Source: Streptomyces nigrescens (GTDB lineage Bacteria; Actinomycetota; Actinomycetes; Streptomycetales; Streptomycetaceae). Taken from it: a stretch of DNA of 64,000 bases. The translations under genes were made by a program, and so were the position numbers. Where the stretch lies: the NCBI GenBank assembly GCA_024349765.1, contig AP026073.1:6758001-6822000 (forward strand), written 5' to 3'. The notes beneath the pieces are model-generated. The model ran no database searches and was not told where the DNA came from. It was given only the letters and a program-made list of their open reading frames with translations. This document shows, in pieces, positions 2,802 to 8,522 of this stretch (the first letter of the stretch is position 1; each line of letters starts with the position of its first letter).

Positions 2802-3107
2802 CTAGCGCTTCGACCTTGGCGCCCGGGGCTTGCGGTGCCTGCCGGTGCCTGCGCCGAGCTTGGGCGCCGCCCCCGAGGCCGGGGGCTCGATGACCTCGGG
2901 GTACAGGTTCTGTTTCGCCTCGGCGAGATCGGATGCGAAACCGTGGGGTTCCCAGGAGTATCCGTTCCATCGCTGGATGGCACAGGGTGCATCCGGGTTC
3001 AGATGCGAGCCTTTGGGGCCGTCACCGGTGACAAGGGGAATTACGCGGAGCCTTCCGACCTTCGCGTAACGGCGCTCCGCCCATTCCGACAACGGTTCGT
3101 CGTCCAT
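2802..3107 (-). CDS. DUF6087 family protein
   Basis: Small (101 aa) basic actinobacterial protein of unknown function. It starts with 'MDDEPLSEWAERR', has a tryptophan-containing centre ('CAIQRWNGYSWEPHGF') and ends in a Lys/Arg/Pro-rich tail. This arrangement is typical of the DUF6087 family found mainly in Streptomyces accessory regions. The ATG is preceded by AAGGAT at 8-nt spacing. It lies about 75 bp downstream of the methyltransferase remnant on the same strand and may share its transcript. No catalytic motif is visible and I cannot assign a function. Confidence 0.7.
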   Translation of the reverse strand: MDDEPLSEWAERRYAKVGRLRVIPLVTGDGPKGSHLNPDAPCAIQRWNGYSWEPHGFASDLAEAKQNLYPEVIEPPASGAAPKLGAGTGRHRKPRAPRSKR

Positions 3108-3181: not shown

Positions 3182-4349
3182 TCACGCGAGGCGGTGGTGC
3201 CAGCGCAGCGACGGGCTGTCCTCGATCCCATATGTGTGGGCCTTGTTGTCGATCTGGAGCTGTACGGCGGTGATGCCGGGGCTTCCCGTGTCCTGCCATG
3301 CGGTGAGGGCCTGCTCGATGTCGTCCCACAGGGCCACCGGGCCGCCCTGGCGGACGGTCCAGCCATCGCCGTCAGACGTGAATTGCGCGAAGGACTCGCG
3401 CTCTGGGTCGAAGAGGTACAGGAGCTCTCGTTCCTCGCGCGTCGAGGCGCGAACGAGGTGTGCGCCGGGCGCGGCAAGCTGGGCGAGGAAGGCGGGCATC
3501 CACTCCTCCAGCATGACCGGCGCTACCTTCGTCGCGCGCTCGCTGTCGGGGTAGGCCGTGCGTGCGGACAGGTCGCCGGCCGGCGGGACCACGGCTTGCG
3601 CCCGAGCCTGCATGAACGAGGAGCGGCCGATGATCCGGCCCTCGGCGGTCCCATCTTCGCCCACGGTCACCATTGCCAGACCCGTGCCGTAGGGCCAGGA
3701 GCCAATGGTCGTGAGGATGATGCCGCCCGGCTTCGTCTGCCGGATCCAGGTGTGGGGGATGCGGCGTACGGCACAGGTGGCAATCACCCGGTCATACGGG
3801 GCGCGGCGGGGGTGCCCCAGGAGACCGTCCCCCGTCACCGTCCATGTCGAGAACCCGGCTGTTTCCAGCGCGGCGTCTGCGCGGGCCGCCACGTCGGGGT
3901 CTACCTCGACGGTGGTGACGTTGTCTTCGCCGAGGCGGTGACACATCAGGGCCGAGGAGTAACCGGTGCCGGTGCCGATCTCCAGCACTTGGTGCCCGTC
4001 TTCCACATCCAGGCTCTCGATCATGCCGACTACGGTGACGGGCGTGGTGGACGAGGACGTGGGCACACCTGTCACGAGGTCAGCGGCCTGGTCGGCGGTG
4101 AGACGACCATCGAGCTGAGTGGTCAGGGACTGGTCGCTGTAGGCGATCTCCGCCCACTCCGCCGGGTCGGCTCCAACCGCTGTGATCGGTCGCCAGCGGC
4201 CGCCGTCCACGGGCAGGAAGACCCCAGGGTGCAAGAACAGCTCACGCGGTACGGCCTCGACCGCCGCCCGCCATTGGGGGGGTCGAGAGGACACCGGCCT
4301 TCTCCAGCCGGTCAGCAAGGGCACGTCGCTCGGATGCGGTTTCAGTCAT
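3182..4349 (-). pseudogene. ATP-grasp peptide maturase system methyltransferase (tgmC-like), frameshifted
   Basis: Class I SAM methyltransferase related to protein-L-isoaspartate O-methyltransferases, of the kind encoded with ATP-grasp RiPP (graspetide) maturases (TIGR04188-type). The SAM-binding motif is 'VLEIGTGTGYSSAL'. Translation should begin at the ATG at 4349, which overlaps the stop of the ATP-grasp gene as ATGA. That frame gives 'MTETASERRALADRLEKAG' and then runs out in a G7 tract on the + strand (4276-4282). Removing one base there restores '...VLSTPQWRAAVEAVPREL', the expected join to the remaining ~370 residues. As read, the N-terminal ~23 residues and the catalytic body are in different frames. 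This is either a real +1 frameshift or a homopolymer sequencing error. Confidence 0.8.
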
Positions 4350-5128
4350 GGGGCGGGCTCTCCTCGGGTCAGCAGGTCGGCGAATGCGGCGGACATTTCC
4401 AGGCCGGTCTTCTCTTCCAGCCACCCCCATTGGCCGTTCGGATTCAGCTCCAACCACCAGTAGTCACCCGCCCGGTCAACGGCGAGGTCGAAGCTCCCGG
4501 ACACCAGCCCGAAGCGGTCCAAGTAGGCAAGGAGCGCCTTGTCCACGTGGTCCGGCAGGTCTACCACGCTGTAGGAGAGGGCGGAGTAGTCCTTGCGCCA
4601 GTCCAGGAGTTCAGAGTCGATCCGCACGGGGAACGCTCGTCCGCCGACCACCAGCACTCGCACGTCGGCGGCCTTGTCCACGCGGGCTTGGAACAGGTGC
4701 GGTGTCACGCGCACGCTGTCATCGATCTCCGCAGCGGTGACCGGGTCTGCCCACCCTGTAACCGGAACTCCGTCTCGCTTGTACGAGGTCCACCGCAGAG
4801 TCTTGTAGAGCACCTGACCGTGTGCGGCGATGAACTCCCGAGCCTCACCCGGGTCATTGGTCACAAGGGTCGACGGCACTGCGAGGCCAAGCCGCTGGGC
4901 GACAGCGAGTTGAGCAGGCTTGTAGTCGGCCGCTGCGTTACGAAGGGGATGATTAACCCATAGTGGACCTTCGAGGGCGTAAAGGGTACCGCCGAGCCCA
5001 TAGCGAACCTGCGCAGCGGCGAACCGCGCATCGTCGTCGCTCAAGTACGGGAAGTCGGGCCAGACGGGGCGGCGCCAGTACACCGCTCGCACGTGATCCA
5101 GGTCGACGGTTCTCGACAGGGTACGCAC
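4346..5128 (-). pseudogene. ATP-grasp ribosomal peptide maturase (tgmB-like), N-terminally truncated
   Basis: ATP-grasp ligase of the SAV_5884 family (TIGR04187-type), which forms ester or amide side-chain links in graspetide RiPPs. The 260 visible residues start at 'RTLSRTVDLDHVRAVYWRRP'. Family members normally have about 60-70 residues before this segment, so the N-terminal pre-ATP-grasp part is missing. The rest looks intact, including 'HPLRNAAADYKPAQLAVAQR' and the C-terminal metal/ATP site 'LELNPNGQWGW'. The GTG at 5128 is only the first available start in this frame and has no separate ribosome-binding site. Directly upstream, in another frame, is the precursor leader. I infer a deletion of roughly 0.3 kb that removed the peptide core and the maturase N-terminus. 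Confidence 0.8.
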
Positions 5129-5316
5129 CTGCCCTCGACCACCTGGCCGGCATGGTCGCGGAACACGCCGAGTTGCGTGGCGGGGTCGACGGTGACCGTG
5201 GCGTACGAACGGCGCAACGTGGTCGGATACGGCGCGAGTCGGCCGGCCCCCCAGGGGCGGGTGCTGGTGGGGTGGGTAGCGGACGTTGCGCTCTCGATCT
5301 CAGCGGTCGCGGCCAT
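5041..5316 (-). pseudogene. Graspetide precursor (tgmA-like) leader, core lost by deletion
   Basis: From the ATG at 5316, with AAGGGGG upstream, the frame encodes 'MAATAEIESATSATHPTSTR' followed by 'PWGAGRLAPYPTT' and 'YATVTVDPATQLGVFRDHAG'. This is the leader signature of putative ATP-grasp target RiPPs (TIGR04186-type). In intact precursors the leader is followed by a Gly/Thr/Ser/Asp-rich core. Here, after 'QVVEG' (about 5130-5145), the frame instead reads the maturase gene out of register ('RCVPCREPSTW...'), to a stop at 5041. The product would be a 91-residue chimera with no recognisable core. Transcription and translation signals look intact, so the leader may still be made. Confidence 0.75.
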
Positions 5317-5459: not shown

Positions 5460-5828
5460 TCAGTCGAACCCGTCTGCGGGAAGCCGTGACTCGCCGCCCT
5501 CGCCGCCGCCCGGAGCGGCATCGCCCTCGGGTTCGTCGTCGTCCGGGGCGGGCAGCCGTGCGCCTCTGCTCTCCGCTACTCGGTGCACATCGGCGAGGGA
5601 GGCGGTCAACACGCATGCCAGTATGTGGACTTCGTCAGGGGTCCAGGTCCGTCCGGCGAGGAGGGGACGGGCTTCCTCGATCAGTTCAGCGGCCGAGCTG
5701 AGCTGTGCCACCTCCACGTTGTCGGCCAGGCGGGACACGTATCCGTTGCCGTCGCCTGCCAGGTAGCACGGCTTCCCGTCCGGGCTGGACCACGGCAGCA
5801 GCCGTGGCTTCTCCATGGGGTTCAGCAC
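5460..5828 (-). CDS. Hypothetical small acidic protein linked to XRE regulators
   Basis: A 122-residue protein with N-terminal 'MEKPRLLPWSSPDGKPCYLA' and a central, probably helical part ('SRLADNVEVAQLSSAAELIE'), ending in an Asp/Glu/Gly/Pro-rich tail. Proteins of this type recur in Streptomyces next to XRE-type regulators; their function is unknown to me. The preferred start is the GTG at 5828, which has GAGG upstream and overlaps the previous gene's TGA, suggesting translational coupling. The ATG at 5816 is an alternative. It lies upstream of the graspetide remnant on the same strand. Confidence 0.6.
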   Translation of the reverse strand: MLNPMEKPRLLPWSSPDGKPCYLAGDGNGYVSRLADNVEVAQLSSAAELIEEARPLLAGRTWTPDEVHILACVLTASLADVHRVAESRGARLPAPDDDEPEGDAAPGGGEGGESRLPADGFD

Positions 5829-6142
5829 GCCGCCACCTCAACTCCGCGAATCCGGCGCGGCCCTGCGTCGACGCCGTCAACGGCCAGCCACAACGCCCGT
5901 CCCGGCCGGCTCTGCAAGCGGCGCGCGTACAGCTCTCCGGTCGTCAGGACGTATGGGCGGATCAGGGCCGCGTCCTCGCCACGCAGGAGACCAGGCTGCC
6001 GAACGGGCACACGGGGAAGGGCGAGCGTCGGCGCGTCCTCACGCCTCGCCGCCGGCTGCGTACGGTCCGTCCGGTGGCGGCCCTGCGCCGGAAGCAGCAG
6101 CCGCAGCAGCAGGAGTAAGAACCTCGCTGTAGCGTTGGACAT
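5822..6142 (-). CDS. Hypothetical protein, 106 aa, coupled to the downstream gene
   Basis: Start chosen at the ATG at 6142, because AAGGAG lies at ideal spacing just upstream. A further in-frame ATG at 6172 would place that ribosome-binding site inside the gene. The N-terminus is 'MSNATARFLLLLLRLLLPAQ', a short Leu-rich hydrophobic stretch followed by Arg-rich sequence. The C-terminal half ('LTTGELYARRLQSRPGRALW') looks like a small soluble fold. The stop overlaps the start of the next gene. I do not recognise the family; context suggests membership of the XRE-controlled accessory unit. Confidence 0.5.
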   Translation of the reverse strand: MSNATARFLLLLLRLLLPAQGRHRTDRTQPAARREDAPTLALPRVPVRQPGLLRGEDAALIRPYVLTTGELYARRLQSRPGRALWLAVDGVDAGPRRIRGVEVAAC

Positions 6143-6529
6143 GTTGTCAACTCCTTGGTGGTTGATGGCCATGCCCCCGGACGTCAGCAGCGTCGCGGGG
6201 GTCTTCCGTGATCTAGCGGTGACGATGGTCAGAGGCCGACCGCGCTTGCGTGTTCACCGTGGCCTCCGGTCACCGTGTCGCGGGCAGGCCACGATGAGCC
6301 AGACGCGCATGCCGTCGTCACCGGGAGTGGTGACAGCGCCAGCTGTGAGGAGAAGGCTGTGCGTGGCTCCGCACCAGTAGCGCCCTCGCCGTGCAGTCGG
6401 ACGGTGCTTACGTCGGGATCCGCGGAGGATGGAGTTGTTGCTGCGGTCACGGTCTCTCCCTGCGCCGTCGGGCTCAGGAAGAGATTGGCCCCGCCTGTAC
6501 CCCTCAAGTACCCCTGCGAGGGGTACCGT
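6143..6529. other. Intergenic region upstream of the small-gene unit; only a weak ORF
   Basis: 387 bp between the XRE gene stop and the 106-aa gene. One minus-strand frame (6229-6507) stays open for 92 codons, but it starts with TTG, lacks a clear ribosome-binding site and resembles nothing I know, so I do not call it a gene. The right-hand end holds a repeated palindromic operator (listed separately). The leader could carry the promoter for the genes running toward 2.8 kb. Confidence 0.4.
6497..6526. promoter_or_regulatory. Candidate XRE operator: three AGGGGTAC half-sites
   Basis: The octamer GTACCCCT occurs at 6497-6504 and again at 6508-6515, and is followed by its inverse AGGGGTAC at 6519-6526. 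The two right-hand copies form a perfect palindrome with a 3-bp centre, and the two direct copies are spaced one helical turn (11 bp) apart. It sits 4 bp below the stop codon of the XRE gene and ahead of the accessory genes on the same strand, so it is a plausible site for that regulator. Confidence 0.6.
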
Positions 6530-7720
6530 TCAGACGCTCGCCCCGGCGTGACACCACTCGGCGAAGCTCGTCAGACTCTCGGCGTCCGCACGCTTCAGAC
6601 GACGCAGCGTTGCTGCATCCTCCCGCACCCAACGGTGCTCCCGGGCGTGCTGCGGTGCGATCCGGCGGGCCGCCTTCAGCGACTCGAACGCGGCACCCGG
6701 CCGACCGGCCCAGAGTTGAACGCGGCCGAGTTCGATGTAGAAACCCGAGCGGCGCTCCGCCGGCAGGCTCTGCGGCGGCTTCCATTCGCGAGCCAGCCGG
6801 AGAGCGCGGTCCAGGTAATCGTCACCGAGGCTCACGGCCACCGAGACCTCGTGGATACGCACACTGTCCGGCCCGAACGCCGTCCCTCCGTATACGTTCT
6901 CCCGCACCCGGTCACCGAAGGCGCGGGCGGCATCGAGGTGCAGCGCCGCCGCGTCACCGTCGCCGGCTCGTCCGGCGACCACCGCGGCCCGCATGTGCAG
7001 CGCGCCACGGGCCGCCAGGACCTCAGGGACATCACTGCGCGGAGCGCGATCCAGGGCCTGTTCAAGGGCACGCAACCCCACGGCATGCGTCTGGGCACCG
7101 AAGTGGACTTCCGTACGGACGTAGGCCACCGTGGCATCCACGAGTGGGTTGCGAGCCTGAGGGGCAGCCCACCTCATGAGGTCGATGAGACGGGCCGAGA
7201 GATCCTTCGCACCGTGCTTGAACGCGACGGCATCCGCGGCCCGGCACGCGTCCACGAGCAGCCGTGCCACCATCGGCCGGTCGTGCGGCGATGCGCTCTG
7301 GAGCACACGGCACAGTTCAGCAAGGAGCCCGGGGACGATGCGGCTGATACGCGCGTACTGCGCGCTCAGCCGGTAGCCGACGATCGATGCGACAGCCTCA
7401 CTGAGCGCCCGCAGTTCGCGGCACGGCCCATCCTCCGGCGCTTCGTATGCGGCGAGGACCGCGGACAGCCCCGGCATCGCCTCGTGCACACGGTCGTCCA
7501 GGCGTTCCCCGTCCGGCAGCAAACGGGTGGGGTCGGTGTCCAGTGCATCCGCAACGGCAGCCAGGACAGCGTCGGAAACACCGCGTTCGCCCCGCTCGAT
7601 CTTCCGGATCGTGCCCAGTGCGACCCGGGCGGCACGGGCGAGATCGACTTGGGTGAGGCCGGCGATGCGCCGCTCGTAGGCGATGCGGGGGCCTACCCCT
7701 TGGTAGACGATGCTGGGCAC
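6530..7720 (-). CDS. XRE family transcriptional regulator with long C-terminal helical domain
   Basis: The N-terminal helix-turn-helix (about residues 10-60) reads 'RRIAGLTQVDLARAARVALG' then 'TIRKIERGERGVSDAVLAAV'. The remaining ~330 residues are Ala/Leu/Arg-rich helices of the TPR-like type common in Streptomyces XRE regulators. The GTG at 7720 is chosen because GGAGGG lies 7-8 nt upstream; a longer reading from 7801 is possible but its extra 27 residues look non-coding. It is on the same strand as the graspetide remnant and probably controls it, possibly through the operator just past its own stop codon. Confidence 0.8.
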   Translation of the reverse strand: MPSIVYQGVGPRIAYERRIAGLTQVDLARAARVALGTIRKIERGERGVSDAVLAAVADALDTDPTRLLPDGERLDDRVHEAMPGLSAVLAAYEAPEDGPCRELRALSEAVASIVGYRLSAQYARISRIVPGLLAELCRVLQSASPHDRPMVARLLVDACRAADAVAFKHGAKDLSARLIDLMRWAAPQARNPLVDATVAYVRTEVHFGAQTHAVGLRALEQALDRAPRSDVPEVLAARGALHMRAAVVAGRAGDGDAAALHLDAARAFGDRVRENVYGGTAFGPDSVRIHEVSVAVSLGDDYLDRALRLAREWKPPQSLPAERRSGFYIELGRVQLWAGRPGAAFESLKAARRIAPQHAREHRWVREDAATLRRLKRADAESLTSFAEWCHAGASV

Positions 7721-7824
7721 ACGGTCTCCCTCCGGCGCGACCACTACGAACCGTACCCAAACCGTCACTGTCCGGGACACGAACGCGTCGCCCCACGTCA
7801 CGTAGGCAAGGCCGTACGGTCATC

Positions 7825-8466
7825 TCACTCCGGCAGGAAGAGGTTCGCCAGCTCCGCAAGACTCCCGATCCGCCAGTCCGCGGCCCGCGCGTACTCGCTG
7901 TCCGCCCACAGGTGCCCCAGCGGCCCGCGGCGCAGGTGCGCGGTGCGCATCCCTGCCCGAGCCGCCGGCACGACGTCATTCTGCGGGTGATCACCGACGT
8001 ACAGAACTTCGTCTGCCGCCGCGCCGGCCAACTCGATCGTGCGGGCGAAGAACGAAGGGGCCGGCTTGGCTACGCCCCACTCCCCGGACACGGCGAGCGC
8101 ATCCACCGGCAGGTCGAGGGCGCGCAGCAACTCCCCTGCCCGTCGGGTCTGATTGCCGGCGACGACCACTCGAATCCTGGCCTCCCGGAGCGCGGCCAGG
8201 GACGGCCGGACATCGGGGTACAGGTCGGACTCATCAAGGGATTCGCCACGGCCGGCCCTATCCATCGCGGCCCGCTCGGCCTCGATGTCGATGTCCGGCC
8301 GAACCAGCCGGAGCGCGTCGGCGTTGTCCCGGCCCTGCGCCACCACCGCGCCGACCAGCGCGGACAGCGTGTGCCGACTGACATCGAGCCAGTCAGCCCA
8401 TGCCCCCCAACCTCGGTCGTCCCTGATGAGGGTCTCGCCGATGTCGAACGCCACTGCACGGATCAT
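7825..8466 (-). CDS. HAD family hydrolase
   Basis: Haloacid dehalogenase-superfamily phosphatase of 213 residues. Motif I is 'AFDIGETLIRDD', with the usual second Asp replaced by Gly-Glu as in several HAD subfamilies ('FDxGxT'). Motif II is the Asn in 'VVAGNQTRR'. Motif III includes the Lys of 'GEWGVAKPAPSFF'. Motif IV is 'VLYVGDHPQNDVVPAARAGM'. A helical cap domain lies between residues ~20 and 95. The substrate is unknown. It is on the same strand as the XRE gene with a gap of about 100 bp, and an inverted repeat lies just upstream of its start. Confidence 0.85.
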   Translation of the reverse strand: MIRAVAFDIGETLIRDDRGWGAWADWLDVSRHTLSALVGAVVAQGRDNADALRLVRPDIDIEAERAAMDRAGRGESLDESDLYPDVRPSLAALREARIRVVVAGNQTRRAGELLRALDLPVDALAVSGEWGVAKPAPSFFARTIELAGAAADEVLYVGDHPQNDVVPAARAGMRTAHLRRGPLGHLWADSEYARAADWRIGSLAELANLFLPE

Positions 8467-8474
8467 GCGAGCAG

Positions 8475-8522
8475 CCTAGGGGTGGGTGGCGGGGGTCGGT
8501 GGCACCCCTAGGGCCGTACGAC
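8475..8522. repeat. 10-bp inverted repeat upstream of the HAD gene
   Basis: CCTAGGGGTG at 8475-8484 and its exact complement CACCCCTAGG at 8513-8522, separated by 28 nt. It may be a terminator for cdd transcripts or an operator for the HAD gene. Its AGGGGT core resembles the half-sites of the candidate XRE operator at 6497-6526. Confidence 0.5.

Follow-up and report, generated by a model that had tools for sequence, protein, structure and literature searches.

Probable recent inactivation of a graspimiditide operon by a 282-bp deletion in Streptomyces nigrescens

How does the leader of a graspetide precursor come to be fused, in the wrong frame, to a maturase without its N-terminus? The question is raised by a 64,000-nucleotide stretch of Streptomyces nigrescens DNA (contig AP026073.1, positions 6,758,001 to 6,822,000; hereafter the window), in which a first-pass annotation had described such a fusion at about 5129-5140. 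The leader is of the precursor type found in graspimiditide operons: its residues 19-61 match TIGR04186 (53 bits, where the cut-off is 25; positions 1-43 of the 72 in the profile), the E-value of 2.1e-14 rules out chance similarity, and Pfam PF14408 also matches (E 7.4e-8). When aligned to the tgmA gene of Streptomyces sp. NRRL S-337 (hereafter S-337), it corresponds to codons 1-61 of tgmA (5134-5316, minus strand), and the core is missing. The described fusion is indeed present: at 5134/5133, with one ambiguous junction base, the leader gives way to maturase sequence that matches TIGR04187 in a different frame. The resulting chimeric open reading frame (ORF) of 91 codons runs from the ATG at 5316 to a stop at 5041 (5041-5316, minus strand) and consists of the leader followed by 30 out-of-frame residues. 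The same frame is also listed from a further-upstream ATG at 5616; we prefer the ATG at 5316 as start codon, since this is where tgmA of S-337 aligns, behind AAAGGGGG. The tail of the chimera (5041-5133, minus strand) has no Asp and contains two CxxC motifs (CVPC...CERC) that are probably due to chance.

What is left of tgmB (4346-5133, minus strand) lacks about 62 N-terminal codons, as judged from TIGR04187 and an alignment to relatives. Its first in-frame start is the GTG at 5128, with GAGG 4 nt 5' of it, which opens a maturase frame of 260 codons (5128-4346). The remnant scores 349 bits against TIGR04187 (cut-off 350) over positions 55-312 of 312, short of a full-length match, and reaches 353.9 bits, above the cut-off, over positions 49-312 in a six-frame search. 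In an alignment with 19 relatives that we chose for this purpose, all 103 invariant columns are retained in the remnant, and 34 of the 62 lost positions are at least 90% conserved. A structural model of S-337 TgmB, on which we do not rely as its pLDDT is only 58, suggests that the lost part forms a strand-helix-strand-strand arrangement at residues 9-49. Compared at the sequence level, the closest solved relatives of the maturase are 9bou, 7m4s and 5ig8.

A third gene, absent from the first-pass annotation, carries a second lesion. Downstream of tgmB lies tgmC (3182-4349, minus strand), whose PIMT-like body, predicted to encode an aspartyl O-methyltransferase, matches TIGR04188 with 482 bits and whose frame is broken near its 5' end. 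Read from the expected ATG at 4349, this frame is shifted after about 23 codons and ends after 35; the body is open from a GTG at 4324, from which a protein with an altered N-terminus may be made. The shift is caused by a run of seven C (4276-4282, minus strand; seven G on the plus strand) that is unique to the window, since S-337 has five C there and all 53 readable copies in relatives have five or fewer. The frameshift is thus apparently either a one-base slip in the C run or a sequencing error at that point. Runs of at least seven C or G occur three times in the window, the tgmC run included, and not at all in the S-337 contig. Directly 3' of tgmC is an open gene (2802-3107, minus strand) encoding a DUF6087 protein (PF19565). 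Of 48 named tgm loci, 19 have such a gene in this position, some with a partial match, and it is a possible fourth member of the operon; a literature search on DUF6087 found no paper with the term.

The closest relative among the matches listed is S-337 (contig NZ_JOIX01000074.1), which shows the same DNA as the contig of G194. The window and the S-337 contig are collinear across most of the 64 kb, so that synteny is conserved, and at the orthologous site S-337 has all three genes at full length, unlike the window: its tgmA encodes 94 residues and its tgmB 322, the two overlapping at TGATG. The base-by-base alignment contains a single gap, in which the window lacks exactly 282 bp. These 282 bp comprise in S-337 the 33-residue core MGKHGTSSGTETSTTTNSDSQNDQGHDQDSQQD, the overlap of the tgmA stop with the tgmB start and, from tgmB, the initial ~62 codons, which agrees closely with the single deletion of about 0.3 kb, hitting both genes and removing the core and 60-70 maturase residues, that had been proposed from the window. 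The core with Thr/Ser and Asp residues that takes the ester links is accordingly present in S-337 and absent from the window. Sequence on either side of the gap is identical, over 71 bp towards the leader and 68 bp towards the maturase (the shared base being counted in both), so the comparison with a sister strain that had been suggested does reveal the extra DNA between matching flanks of ~70 bp. Over longer distances, identity is 96% for the 1953 bp from the junction onward and 94% for 266 bp towards the leader, and the leader with ~0.9 kb upstream is 92-93% identical to S-337. The tgmA ribosome-binding site is retained, as had been claimed; for the promoter, said to be kept as well, what we find is similar upstream DNA rather than an intact promoter. 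Although 282 is a multiple of three, the deletion fuses the genes out of frame because tgmA and tgmB overlap in different frames.

The breakpoints, judged on the S-337 DNA, have a single base in common and are free of direct repeats. Two candidate repeats were rejected: the 10-bp repeat ACCGTCGACC is situated beyond the two breakpoints and has a spacing of 365 rather than 282, and if the deletion had gone through the GGGCA pentamer found close to each breakpoint, the window would have three bases more than it does. With no repeats at the site, illegitimate end joining is the probable route of the deletion. The same feature bears on whether the true chromosome might still hold the 282 bp and have a tgmC C run one base shorter, both lesions being artefacts of assembly or sequencing. 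A homopolymer such as the one in tgmC is prone to sequencing error, but misassembly would be expected at a direct repeat, so the breakpoints speak against an error of that kind, and the source genome is in 2 contigs. Furthermore, of the 45 S-337 ORFs compared, 38 have a single-frame match in the window that covers >93% of their length, the other seven being two tgm genes, three unmatched ORFs, one at the window edge and one that matches without 8 N-terminal residues. Within the scope of this comparison, from which tgmB was filtered out and which leaves gene ends aside, tgmC is the sole split frame, making a real event the more likely origin of its lesion. We consider an artefact improbable.

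The deletion is derived and recent. In a whole-locus search of 392 Streptomyces genomes, the source genome included, no listed match from another genome continues beyond the junction for over 38 bases, and close relatives, among the matches listed, are matched separately on either side of it. Likewise, no joined form reaching beyond 38 bases past the junction was found among 150 relatives, a set that partly overlaps the first and in which 11 genomes, window included, gave a match, and none occurs in 65 other loci that we classified after picking them from among the matches listed. A relative with the same compact arrangement, which would have spoken against a deletion, was thus seen neither among the matches listed nor among the classified loci. 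In a tree of tgmC the window is nested among intact loci, and the core and the maturase N-terminus are found in intact loci across the tree. Comparison of the window with S-337 gives a dN/dS of 0.24 for what remains of tgmB and of 0.32 for the body of tgmC; for the leader it is 1.1, a value based on 8 changes only. When changes were assigned to lineages with outgroups, synonymous and non-synonymous changes numbered 6 and 5 in the window and 5 and 5 in S-337 for tgmB, and 7 and 10 in the window and 5 and 7 in S-337 for tgmC. Relaxed selection as a proof of decay is thus seen neither in the dN/dS of the tgmB remnant and the tgmC body nor in the lineage changes. Similar changes on both lineages and low dN/dS suggest that too little time has passed for loss of constraint to become visible, which fits a recent event and yields no independent sign of decay.

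Taken together, these findings lead us to read the locus, with a probability of roughly 0.92, as a recently inactivated graspimiditide (group 13 graspetide) operon, tgmA-tgmB-tgmC, that has undergone the 282-bp deletion and, in tgmC, the C-run slip or a sequencing error. The gene set of precursor, ATP-grasp ligase and PIMT-like methyltransferase is that of graspimiditides, as given in the accessible portions of two papers (PMC13001092, PMC10787088), and the same three families make up the operons of fuscimiditide, amycolimiditide, albusimiditide and SsfA. By analogy with fuscimiditide, amycolimiditide and SsfA, as far as these sources describe them, tgmA in intact relatives would encode the precursor and tgmB an ATP-grasp maturase that, with ATP and guided by the leader, would join Thr/Ser and Asp residues of the core by ester bonds; the tgmC product would then methylate one Asp, leading to aspartimide formation. 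In keeping with this, the S-337 core is Thr/Ser-rich and then Asp-rich after Glu61, and appears comparable, though unaligned, with GluC fragment 63-97 of SsfA in the available text of PMC10787088. In the window, a single deletion removed the whole core together with the N-terminal part of the maturase, and a one-base slip in the C run, or a sequencing error there, shifts the tgmC frame. According to the parts of these papers accessible to us (PMC10787088, PMC13001092), the methyltransferases of graspimiditide type that have been studied are inactive on the linear precursor and need the cyclised peptide. Because the core is gone, the conserved N-terminus of the maturase is lost and such methyltransferases need a cross-linked peptide, no product is expected from the window, in which it differs from known graspimiditide operons, and we infer that the operon is dead. 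The same methyltransferase family is used by type I and II pamtides (imiditides), of which type I consists of precursor and methyltransferase only, again on the accessible text of these sources (PMC13001092, PMC10787088); the window differs from them in that the 30-residue tail of the chimera offers no Asp and the methyltransferase is frameshifted.

Could the altered genes nevertheless work? The 91-residue chimera keeps the native start and ribosome-binding site and its ORF is open, so it might be translated and serve a separate function, such as that of a non-cyclised peptide or, given its two CxxC motifs, a metal-binding one. Its tail is an out-of-frame reading without Asp and hence not an evident methyltransferase substrate, and as the joined state is recent and unseen elsewhere, among the matches listed and in the 65 other loci, no conservation backs such a role, which we regard as very improbable. 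Slightly less probable again is that an N-truncated maturase made from the GTG at 5128 acts in trans on another precursor. The 260-codon frame, the GAGG before its start and the retention of all 103 invariant columns would suit this, and the genome does contain another precursor-maturase pair (C1:3344540-3345646); against it, the lost segment is strongly conserved (34/62 positions), and the maturase belonging to that pair is complete, with 35% identity. The genome also carries a third maturase-like gene (C1:4712112) that scores under the family cut-off; it and the pair are 35-40% identical to the window maturase. Finally, an ancestral compact arrangement, to which the core and N-terminus were added in relatives, is a proposal for which we found no support; it can be dismissed, as both parts occur in intact loci throughout the tgmC tree and the window is nested among those loci.

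The surroundings of the inactivated operon differ from those in S-337 at a few places. A segment with a 423-residue HTH regulator and a HAD-type hydrolase (6210-8492) has no S-337 counterpart; between the same collinear flanks S-337 has other ORFs, which we take to resemble a different regulator and a NUDIX protein. On sequence comparison this segment is a variable spot adjoining the operon. Near position 1297, S-337 has an extra 197-codon ORF that the window lacks. Two ORFs upstream of tgmA (5460-5828 and 5822-6172, minus strand) were found in S-337 only, out of 48 named loci, and have no NCBIfam or Pfam match at E 0.1.

We asked how often such operons are damaged in related genomes. Of 66 loci, window included, that were picked from among the matches listed, in which weak remnants with tgmB or tgmC only may be missing, 40 look intact and 26 damaged, with the reservation that sequencing errors may account for frameshifts in draft genomes. 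A strict three-gene test was passed by 34 loci. To these we added the loci of G046 and G173, in which inspection revealed a complete tgmA with core, and those of G058 (two loci), G075 and G057, in which the flagged tgmB stop lies at residues 317-321 of 322; G303 was counted as damaged, there being no leader upstream of its tgmB. One distant locus (L140 of G051, 40-45% identity) and the two paralogues in the window genome (L159 and L160) were left out of the 66. Among the damaged loci, seven retain a full-length tgmC but no tgmA, their tgmB being either truncated or missing altogether, three show a tgmB frameshift only, one (G303) has lost the tgmA leader only, one has a tgmC frameshift only, and the remaining 14, including the window, have several losses. 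Damage is therefore limited to the tgmAB side in 11 loci and to tgmC in one, a bias with a one-sided P of 0.0045 by gene length (0.008 without G303), kinship being ignored in both values.

The seven lone tgmC genes (L121, L122, L123, L124, L127, L128 and L130) differ in their surroundings. The tgmC gene of L122 is extended at its 5' end by a new stretch, MIAPTETTETDTETKSDTE, which follows an AGGAG of its own, and in L124 an ORF that resembles a transposase gene lies beside the cut tgmB. The flanks of the G180 locus match those of the intact-type locus of G096, the deletion spanning early tgmA to late tgmB, and a close relative of G180, G165, has a different deletion. Nearest-neighbour dN/dS is 0.18-0.39 for the seven lone copies and 0.12-0.38 (median 0.23) for 44 others, these controls being all copies not called lone and so including loci with damaged tgmA or tgmB; the copy of G180, at 0.39, is above all 44. 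In the tgmC tree the lone copies of G358 and G390 group as sisters (dS 0.45, dN/dS 0.26 between them), and no shared DNA was found outside tgmC in the ~7 kb compared.

One reading of this pattern is that loss of graspimiditide operons is directional, tgmAB being deleted and tgmC kept by selection for a substrate that does not depend on the cross-link, with the window as an early step. We regard this as doubtful. The window's own tgmC is frameshifted, lone and other tgmC copies have about equal dN/dS, which also fits recent independent losses, and the copy of G180 exceeds all controls while G358 and G390 share only tgmC DNA in the ~7 kb compared. If the reading were true, it would suggest a way in which stand-alone aspartyl methyltransferase systems might arise from graspimiditides. 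Lone tgmC genes could be useful on their own, or the losses could simply be recent, or deletions could tend to enter from the 5' side.

By itself, the inactivated operon of the window is an ordinary set of pseudogenes of a known kind. It is unusually clean because an intact sister exists: it represents a polarised inactivation of a RiPP operon in which both breakpoints can be read against a sister that is ~4-6% diverged. At the level of titles and abstracts, we found no literature on graspetide operon decay or on graspetides together with pseudogenes, which is not proof of absence. The locus also holds a warning for genome mining, as a six-frame family search passes the cut-off for all three families here, yet no gene is intact. 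In relatives this type of operon is often lost, and the recurrent lone methyltransferase is a modest lead. The 26 damaged loci among 66 provide a usable set for studying in which order a RiPP operon decays and why the methyltransferase often outlasts the peptide.
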